Positions 32,919 to 34,897 of a stretch of DNA of 64,000 bases are shown here, piece by piece. Position 1 is the first letter of the stretch; every line of letters starts with the position of its first letter. The notes under the pieces were generated by a model. It saw nothing but the letters and a program-made list of their open reading frames with translations, was not told the origin of the DNA and ran no database searches. The translations under genes were made by a program, and so were the position numbers. The DNA is from Halopelagius inordinatus (GTDB lineage Archaea; Halobacteriota; Halobacteria; Halobacteriales; Haloferacaceae): NCBI RefSeq assembly GCF_900113245.1, contig NZ_FOOQ01000001.1, positions 310,001 through 374,000 of the forward strand, given 5' to 3'.

Positions 32919-33890
32919 ATGGCCTACTACGTGGGCGTCGACCTGGGCGCCACCAACGTCCGCGCGGTCGTAGCCGACGACGAGGGCACGATCATCGGCA
33001 ACGCAGAGAGCGGGACGCCTCGCGGTCCGACCGGTATCGCGGTGACGGAAGCCGTCCTCCGCGTCGTCCGCGAGGCGTGCGACGACGCCGGCGTGGAACC
33101 GGACGAGGCGGCGGCCGCGGGCATCGCCGCCATCGGCCCGTTGGACCTCGCCGAAGGCGCAGTCGAGAACCCGGCGAACCTCCCGGACACCATCGACCGC
33201 ATCCCGCTCACCGGCCCCATCTCCGTGTTGCTCGACACGGACCGTCTCTATCTCCACAACGACACGAACGCGGGCGTCATCGGCGAACGGTTCTACAGCG
33301 ACAGAAACCCCGACGACATGGTGTATCTCACCATCTCCTCGGGCGTCGGCGCGGGCGTCTGCGTCGACGGAGAGGTGCTCTCCGGGTGGGACGGTAACGC
33401 GGGCGAAGTCGGACACATGACCCTCGACCCTCAGGGGCTTTTGACCTGCGGGTGCGGCCACGACGGACACTGGGAGGGGTACTGTTCGGGGAACAACATC
33501 CCCCGGTACGCCGAGTATCTCTACGAGGACGACAGAAACGTCGAGACGTCGATGCCGATAGACGACCCCGACTTCTCGGCGGTGGACGTCTTCGAACACG
33601 CCGAGGACGACGACTTCGCCGCCTACGTCGTCGACCAAATCGGCCACTGGAACGCGATGGGCGTCGCGAACATCGTCCACGCGTACGCTCCCATCATCAT
33701 CTACGTCGGCGGGGCCGTCGCCCTCAACAACCCGGAGAAGATTCTCGACCCGATTCGCGACCGGATGGACGACATGGTCATGACCAACGTCCCCGAGATA
33801 GAACTCACGACGCTCGGCGACGAAGTCGTGGTGCAGGGTGCACTCGCGAGTGCGTTGACCGGTGGCACCGGTGACCGGTCCCGTCTGTAG
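32919..33890 (+). CDS. ROK-family sugar kinase (glucokinase-like)
   Basis: The 323-residue protein has the ATP-phosphate motif DLGATNVR near the N-terminus. The ROK signature includes GNAGEVGHM (from about residue 160) and the zinc site CGCGHDGHWEGYCSG. The substrate region NLPDTIDRIPLTGPI and NDTNAGVIGE fits glucokinase-like enzymes. It probably phosphorylates glucose or a related sugar; an N-acetylhexosamine kinase is possible. A TATA-like AGTTAAGTA is 28 bases upstream. The coding sequence for the last residues TGGTGDRSRL is repeated twice more after the stop codon. Confidence 0.9.
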   Translation: MAYYVGVDLGATNVRAVVADDEGTIIGNAESGTPRGPTGIAVTEAVLRVVREACDDAGVEPDEAAAAGIAAIGPLDLAEGAVENPANLPDTIDRIPLTGPISVLLDTDRLYLHNDTNAGVIGERFYSDRNPDDMVYLTISSGVGAGVCVDGEVLSGWDGNAGEVGHMTLDPQGLLTCGCGHDGHWEGYCSGNNIPRYAEYLYEDDRNVETSMPIDDPDFSAVDVFEHAEDDDFAAYVVDQIGHWNAMGVANIVHAYAPIIIYVGGAVALNNPEKILDPIRDRMDDMVMTNVPEIELTTLGDEVVVQGALASALTGGTGDRSRL

Positions 33891-34007
33891 GACGAGACGA
33901 TTCACCGGGGTCACCGCAGGCGGTACGGGCGACCGTTCGCGCCTGTAAGGGCGCGGGAACTCGTCGGGGGTACCGAAGGCGGTACGGGTGACCGGTCGCG
34001 CCTGTGA
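33858..34007 (+). repeat. Three tandem copies of the ROK kinase C-terminal tail, each with a stop
   Basis: Copy 1 (33858-33890) is the true end of the kinase: TGGTGDRSRL, TAG. Copy 2 (33913-33948) encodes TAGGTGDRSRL, TAA, in the +1 frame. Copy 3 (33972-34007) encodes TEGGTGDRSRL, TGA, in the kinase frame. Spacing is 58 and 59 bases. Within the shared GGTGDRSRL, copies 1 and 2 differ at seven bases, all third codon positions. The kinase frame is open from TAG to copy 3 (38 codons). The remaining bases to 34100 hold no other gene. Confidence 0.85.
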
Positions 34008-34100
34008 TGGCGCAATGACTCGCGTACCCCTTCTCGGAAGCCGAGAGCCACCCTACGAAGCCATCTCGGTCGAAGGCGTCTCACTAGGCGGTGATCTATC

Positions 34101-34778
34101 ATGACCACAACGAGACGTGGAGCGTACGACAGAGCGACGAGAACACTCCACGAGAGGGCGTCAGACCCCCGAACGCTCGCGGGGACGCTGTTCGTCGTCC
34201 TCGCCGTCCAGTTTCTCACGGTCATCATGCTCGCGGCGGCGATGGCACCGGGCTACGACTTCGGCGGCGGCGCGATTAGCGACCTCGGCGTACTCGCGCC
34301 GACCGCGTTGCTGTTCAACGCTTCGCTCGTCGCCGCCGGCTTACTCGATATCGCGGGGGGATACGCCTTCTACCGCGTACACGGCGAGCGTTGGATACTG
34401 GCCGTCTTCGTACTCGCCGGCGTCGGCGCAGTCGGAGCGGGCGTCTTTCCGCTCGACACCGGCGGCCTCCACGGCCTGTTCGCCCTCGTCGCGTTCCTGT
34501 TCTTCAACCTGCAGGCTCTCGCGAGTGCGACCCGACTCCGCGGCGTCGTGAAGGCGACCGGAATCGTCGCGGGCATGGTCGGACTCACCTTCGTACTCCT
34601 CATGGCCATCGGCGACGGCGGCAACGCGGCGGCGTTCGGACCCATCGGCCACGGCGGGACCGAGCGGATGATCGTCTACCCGGTGATGCTTTGGTTAGTC
34701 GCCTTCGGCGGGTCCCTCCTCGGCACGCCGTTGGCGGAGACCCGACCGGCCGTCGGCGAGAACGAGGCGACCGACTGA
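34101..34778 (+). CDS. DUF998 family membrane protein
   Basis: The 225-residue protein has six predicted membrane helices after a charged N-terminal tail ([20 protein letters not shown]). The motif [14 protein letters not shown] between helices 1 and 2 and [17 protein letters not shown] are typical of DUF998. Function unknown. It follows the kinase tail repeats by 93 bases on the same strand. Confidence 0.82.
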
Positions 34779-34897
34779 CTCCGTCTGACCCGTCCGACCC
34801 CTCCGACCCGCCGACGCATCTCGCGTCTGCGCACCGGAGTAGTCCGAGACGCGAATCGAAGACACCGCTTATCCCCCTGCGCGCCTCAGTGCGATTC

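Follow-up and report, generated by a model that had tools for sequence, protein, structure and literature searches.

A Conserved Hairpin over the Stop Codon of a Haloarchaeal Sugar Kinase Gene, Repeated in Tandem with the Coding Tail

In the window, a 64,000-nucleotide stretch of the Halopelagius inordinatus genome, the end of a sugar kinase gene is repeated behind its own stop codon, and each repeat but the last is folded into a hairpin which holds the stop codon in its loop. The hairpin, which a previous sequence-only reading of the tail copies had not noticed, is the main conserved feature of the site; compensatory changes have preserved it across several genera as well as other families. 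The unit, a tail plus a hairpin of 57–60 nt in all, is present in two to four copies behind the orthologous ROK kinase, with a bare, decaying tail closing the array. Neither the repeat nor the conserved hairpin is an artefact, and both are probably old. We give about an even chance to the explanation that the element is an RNA hairpin of the mRNA 3′ end, not described before, which was amplified and shuffled in tandem.

Results

The kinase scored 146 bits against the Pfam ROK domain (curated cut-off 22.9). The domain covered residues 4–310, leaving the tail GGTGDRSRL outside, on its C-terminal side. The score with the glucokinase equivalog NF045551 was 164 bits, below the cut-off of 500, so that the substrate is not settled. 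The nearest relative of the kinase was found in Halogeometricum, with 86% identity. The next gene starts 210 bp past the kinase stop codon, outside the element (Table 1). Directly 3′ of this second gene, at positions 34781–34815, the 9-bp sequence CCGTCCGAC is repeated four times. In most species with an array, a co-oriented gene similarly stands 100–670 bp from the kinase, with the element in between. In two Halobellus loci (L011 and L014) the next gene begins 1–4 bases before the kinase gene ends and there is no array; a gene related to that neighbour stands 100–670 bp off in the array species.

Table 1. Features at the end of the kinase gene (positions counted from the first base of the window)
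Feature	Position	Strand	Description
ROK-family sugar kinase (glucokinase-like)	32919..33890	+	323 aa; Pfam PF00480, E=2e-42; PDB glucokinases 2qm1, 3vov
Tail copy 1 (coding)	33861..33890	+	GGTGDRSRL + TAG
Hairpin 1	33868..33908	+	13/14 pairs; MFE -23.1 kcal/mol, z -2.4; covariation over 40 units
Hairpin 1, outer stem	33868-33874/33902-33908		CCGGTGA/TCACCGG
Hairpin 1, inner stem	33879-33885/33891-33897		TCCCGTC/GACGAGA
Hairpin 1, apical loop	33886-33890		TGTAG, holds the stop codon
Linker before copy 2	33909..33918	+	ends ..CGCA; similar ends in other genera and families
Tail copy 2	33919..33948	+	GGTGDRSRL + TAA; offset +58, outside the kinase frame; 7 synonymous differences from copy 1
Hairpin 2	33926..33967	+	13/14 pairs; MFE -23.5 kcal/mol, z -2.1; outer stem 33926-33932/33961-33967, inner stem 33937-33943/33950-33956; loop TGTAAG
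Linker before copy 3	33968..33977	+	ends ..CCGAA
Tail copy 3 (last)	33978..34007	+	GGTGDRSRL + TGA; offset +117; differs from copy 1 by 5 synonymous and 0 nonsynonymous changes
Hairpin 3, partly decayed	33985..34026	+	inner stem 6/7, outer stem 5/7 pairs
DUF998 membrane protein (next gene, same orientation)	34101..34778	+	Pfam PF06197

The coordinates of the three tails and the counts of their differences, as given by the sequence-only reading, were correct on recheck. Seven of the 27 bases distinguish copies 1 and 2, five distinguish copies 1 and 3 and two distinguish copies 2 and 3, all at third codon positions. Tandem Repeats Finder reported a 59-bp period at 33907–34022. It was also confirmed that the kinase frame stays open from the TAG through copy 3 (38 codons) and that the frame of copy 2 is +1. 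When 524 gene ends drawn from 80 related loci and the window were compared, the last nine residues recurred (at least 8/9, within 400 bp) behind 15 kinase genes and behind no other gene; about 440 other gene ends were devoid of such an array. The repetition of the tail is neither due to chance nor a general habit of genes. At a lower similarity (7/9), the last nine residues QGYIAERER of a gene ending at base 2280 of locus L033 recur 169 bp downstream, a single case that is probably due to chance.

Each tail copy except the last forms, with about 28 nt behind it, a two-stem hairpin. The inner stem is formed by the seven bases that end two before the stop codon and the bases right after it; the outer stem is of the type CCGGTGA with TCACCGG, and the apical loop contains the stop codon. 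The inner-stem sequences vary while the pairing is kept (GCCAGAC/GTCTGGC, GCTCGCC/GGCGAGC, TCGCGGC/GCCGCGA and TCACGGC/GCCGTGA). In an alignment of 40 units, 87.6% of the cells were paired and the covariation was 0.317, compared to 0.117 in shuffled alignments (0/500 reached this value) and at most 0.092 when the partners were slid by 1–3 columns; kinship among the sequences inflates such scores, and the slid controls carry equal kinship. An independent set of eight units from other families showed 95.5% of paired cells and a covariation of 0.375 versus 0.138. Compensatory changes exceeded the shuffled and slid controls in the two independent alignments. MAFFT set the loop gap of alignment A1 one base off, so that one or two pairs are undercounted. 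G-U pairs occupied 28 cells and A-C mismatches nine (20 versus six at the genus level, p=0.009), an excess which speaks for an RNA of the sense strand. The folding z-score at the stop codon was -3.64 for the kinases with an array, -0.27 for those without and -0.11 for other gene ends. The decayed third hairpin suggests that the array of the window was once longer.

The 3′ arm showed Watson-Crick pairing at 81% of third positions with the preceding tail and at 46% with the following one. A bistable structure, in which the 3′ arm would alternatively pair with the following tail, was rejected on this comparison, as no covariation was seen for that pairing. A coding constraint on the spacers was likewise dropped: the regular residues read in the frame of copy 2 result from the pairing with the tail codons. 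Stems with 7/7 pairs around stop codons were found at 17 of the 524 gene ends, eight of them belonging to these kinases, compared to 35 of about 2075 control places; once these kinases are set aside there is no clear excess of similar hairpins at other genes. All the strong matches to a covariance model of the element, in the genome of the window and in 171 genomes of the family, were at this kinase. Matches at L174, the end of an unrelated gene, and at L176 are probably due to chance. No Rfam family matched the element above its gathering score, and the single sub-threshold match, elsewhere in the stretch, was attributed to chance.

Kinase orthologues followed by extra tails were present in 14 Haloferax genomes, in the genus of the window and its Halogeometricum relatives (7), in Salinigranum (4), in Haloprofundus (3, one of them decayed) and in Halogranum rubrum. 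The offsets in these Haloferacaceae arrays are mostly 57–59, with up to four copies. Seven loci of other families (L046, L048, L178, L211, L215, L217 and L224) have the same layout, with the tail GTGDRxRMRR and offsets of 57–60. The copies match the tail of their own species, for instance GDRARL in Salinigranum, GDRTRM in L125 and GDRSRMRR in L215, and every species with the hairpin also possesses a second tail, decayed in some of them. The array is absent in many lineages, including Halobellus, Halorubrum and Haloarcula, and no remnant copies above the background were detected at offsets 55–62 behind the array-free kinases. On a kinase tree built with the tail left out, the presence of the array requires five changes. 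One old origin followed by losses and several origins are both possible; distant families have linkers that end alike ahead of the tail (..CGCA), which favours the former. In Salinigranum L121, a decayed fourth copy (..cgcaggcggtacggtgacc..ccgggctgtaa) lies behind copy 3, which implies that arrays were once longer. L092 carries a damaged copy, GGTTRRSRRRR, at offset 58 and an intact one at 86, 28 bases further on, which looks like the fusion of two units by a deletion.

Compared to the coding copy, the interior non-coding copies showed 46 synonymous changes and one nonsynonymous change, and the last copies 102 and 36, which corresponds to decay. By our estimate, if a copy arose within one lineage and were free of constraint, about half of its changes would be nonsynonymous. 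Between species of Haloferax, and likewise of Salinigranum, tails that are coding in one stand as non-coding copies in another and the reverse, a pattern which shows that units are exchanged. Copy 2 of L025 is identical to copy 1, the coding tail, of L027, and copy 1 of L025 is 1 nt off copy 2 of L021, L023 and L119, while the 120 nt upstream of the tail are almost identical throughout this group. In Salinigranum, copies 1 and 2 of L028 correspond to copies 2 and 3 of L121: copy 1 of L028 has three differences to copy 2 of L121 and nine to its copy 1. These swaps imply that spare tails were once coding ends and vice versa, and the non-coding copies look codon-constrained because of this recent coding ancestry. 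The order of the units thus explains much of the synonymous bias, and second-order selection that keeps spare tails intact may contribute as well. Orthologous non-coding copies, copy 2 of the window and copy 2 of L090, differ by four synonymous and no nonsynonymous changes, and exchange alone may be insufficient to account for this. Relatives neither lack the extra copies nor show random changes in them, as would have spoken against the sequence-only reading: the copies are there and their changes are synonymous. Its view that copies 2 and 3 bear the mark of coding sequence, and its suggestion that they derive from coding tails, are supported.

In several array-free Halorubrum (L045, L051, L136 and others) the third positions of the tail are far more variable than those of the gene body (0.63 versus 0.10 between L045 and L051). 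This is partly due to the many fourfold codons and is otherwise unexplained. As a proof of exchange, hypervariability of the tail is weakened by these Halorubrum, and the order swaps were relied on instead.

Discussion

We propose that a cis-acting RNA hairpin is located at the end of the kinase gene and is built from the gene's own last codons. In this model, the TGD and SRL codons would provide the 5′ arms, the stop codon the apical loop and the sequence right behind it the 3′ arms. The units would be duplicated, deleted and exchanged within the array by unequal recombination, gene conversion or template switching. At the mRNA 3′ end, the hairpins might serve as partial transcription terminators or 3′-end stabilisers between the kinase and the co-oriented next gene, each tandem copy adding to the effect of the one before it, and the spare tails would be left untranslated. 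Precedent and position make a role at the mRNA 3′ end the most likely function. No run of four or more T, expected of a bacterial-type intrinsic terminator, occurs in 33891–34060. The hairpin and the duplication of the tail always occur together, which would not be required of a purely functional hairpin and counts against the model. The site would make archaeal 3′-end formation testable at a defined location in the genetically tractable Haloferax.

In our ranking, 3′-end formation or stability comes first and a purely mutational product second, translated spare tails being unlikely. The mutational explanation, which we regard as possible at rather low probability, supposes that template switching at the self-complementary tail ACCGGTGACCGGT generates a tail, an inverted tail and a tail again, and that repeated switching and slippage keep arms and copies alike through quasi-palindrome correction and concerted evolution. 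It would readily account for the invariable layout, (tail, inverted arm)n followed by a tail, for the co-occurrence of the hairpin and a second tail, for copies that track each species' own tail, and for the variation in copy number and period. However, strand-symmetric correction predicts equal numbers of G-U and A-C cells, where G-U is in excess; the pattern is maintained across genera and families, and the 46:1 bias is unexpected for unconstrained DNA copied within one lineage. This bias, together with stop codons that are kept although swapped among TAA, TAG and TGA, would fit the proposal that the copies are reserve tails: frequent deletions between copies would make the next one the coding end, so that copies harmful to the protein are weeded out and second-order selection keeps the spares intact. 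In Salinigranum, a spare tail of L121 indeed occupies the coding place in L028. We nevertheless hold this proposal unlikely, as it depends on frequent deletion and many last copies decay, although deletion could promote those too. In a further, tentative reading, given the same low weight as the mutational one, the gene end would renew itself: a hairpin-bounded array of interchangeable C-terminal cassettes, old in Halobacteria, would be a cis-acting RNA and a reservoir in one. Recombination driven by the stem-loops would keep swapping in a new coding tail and stop codon, and selection would maintain the RNA fold as well as the codons in the spare tails. The arrays may also be used as a natural gauge of the recombination rate among short tandem units.

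That the copies are selected as translated tails, reached by readthrough, frameshifting or ribosome hopping and yielding longer or rescued kinases, is very improbable in our judgement. The synonymous-only changes, a stop codon held, like that of T4 gene 60, in the loop of a hairpin, and the open frame of the next copy in 33/33 distinct spacers would suit it, but the other frames are nearly as open (stops in 3/33 and 2/33 spacers). Offsets of 57 and 60 keep frame 0, 58 gives +1 and 59 gives +2, which makes a frame-specific device unlikely; all three stop codons are in use, there is no conserved slip sequence, and hopping between equal codons would yield the same protein. The sequence-only reading had offered stop-codon readthrough and a frameshift safety net; neither is supported, as the offsets fall in all three frames among species, no frame or slip site persists, and the open frame of copy 2 does not stand out. 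Its third proposal, a tail-cassette array with C-terminal switching, stands as an evolutionary process, since tails swap between close species, and its interpretation as a whole is partly supported. Synonymous-only repeats behind a gene are not necessarily translated. Equally remote is the idea that a mobile element left the tail copies behind by inserting at a hairpin which serves as its recombination or attachment site (attC-like or an integrase target). The location at a gene end, the gene-restoring tails and the greater age and decay of the copies farthest from the gene speak for such a site. Against it, no match was found in 2.9 million viral contigs, phage records and haloarchaeal plasmids, and the spacers are just 21–30 nt long and complementary to the tail. 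Neither of the GTT and AAC boxes of an attC site is present in 33861–33918.

We know of no archaeal description of a conserved fold over a stop codon with a repeated, exchanging coding tail, and none was encountered in the literature searched. The bypass site of T4 gene 60 also has a stop codon in a hairpin and similar codons about 50–60 nt downstream. At the kinase, landing on them would give the same protein, and there is neither a conserved frame nor a sign of translation. CRISPR arrays possess repeats of about 30 nt, spacers of about 29 nt and a degenerate last repeat, and the kinase arrays are alike in these respects. However, CRISPR spacers are unique and unrelated, whereas the kinase spacers are alike, their first 18 nt being largely complementary to the preceding repeat, and the repeat is a coding tail. 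The Rfam cis-regulatory elements share conserved pairing with compensatory changes and a fixed gene context, but the kinase element differs by its protein-coding 5′ arms and by a tandem array trading copies with the coding end.

In Haloferax volcanii, hairpins lie upstream of 503 of the 1,543 transcript ends, and one tested hairpin stopped 59% of the transcripts in vivo; such hairpins are located near 3′ ends and can fall within coding sequence (Berkemer et al. 2020, PMC7237163). The kinase hairpin shares with them its haloarchaeal setting and its expected proximity to a transcript end. It differs in spanning the stop codon of one gene, in covarying and in being tandem, its role in termination being only predicted. 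In yeasts, tandem stop codons provide backup ends behind a stop and are maintained by selection (PMC1088959). Those are single codons in frame, whereas the kinase arrays are made of whole tails and hairpins, in any frame.
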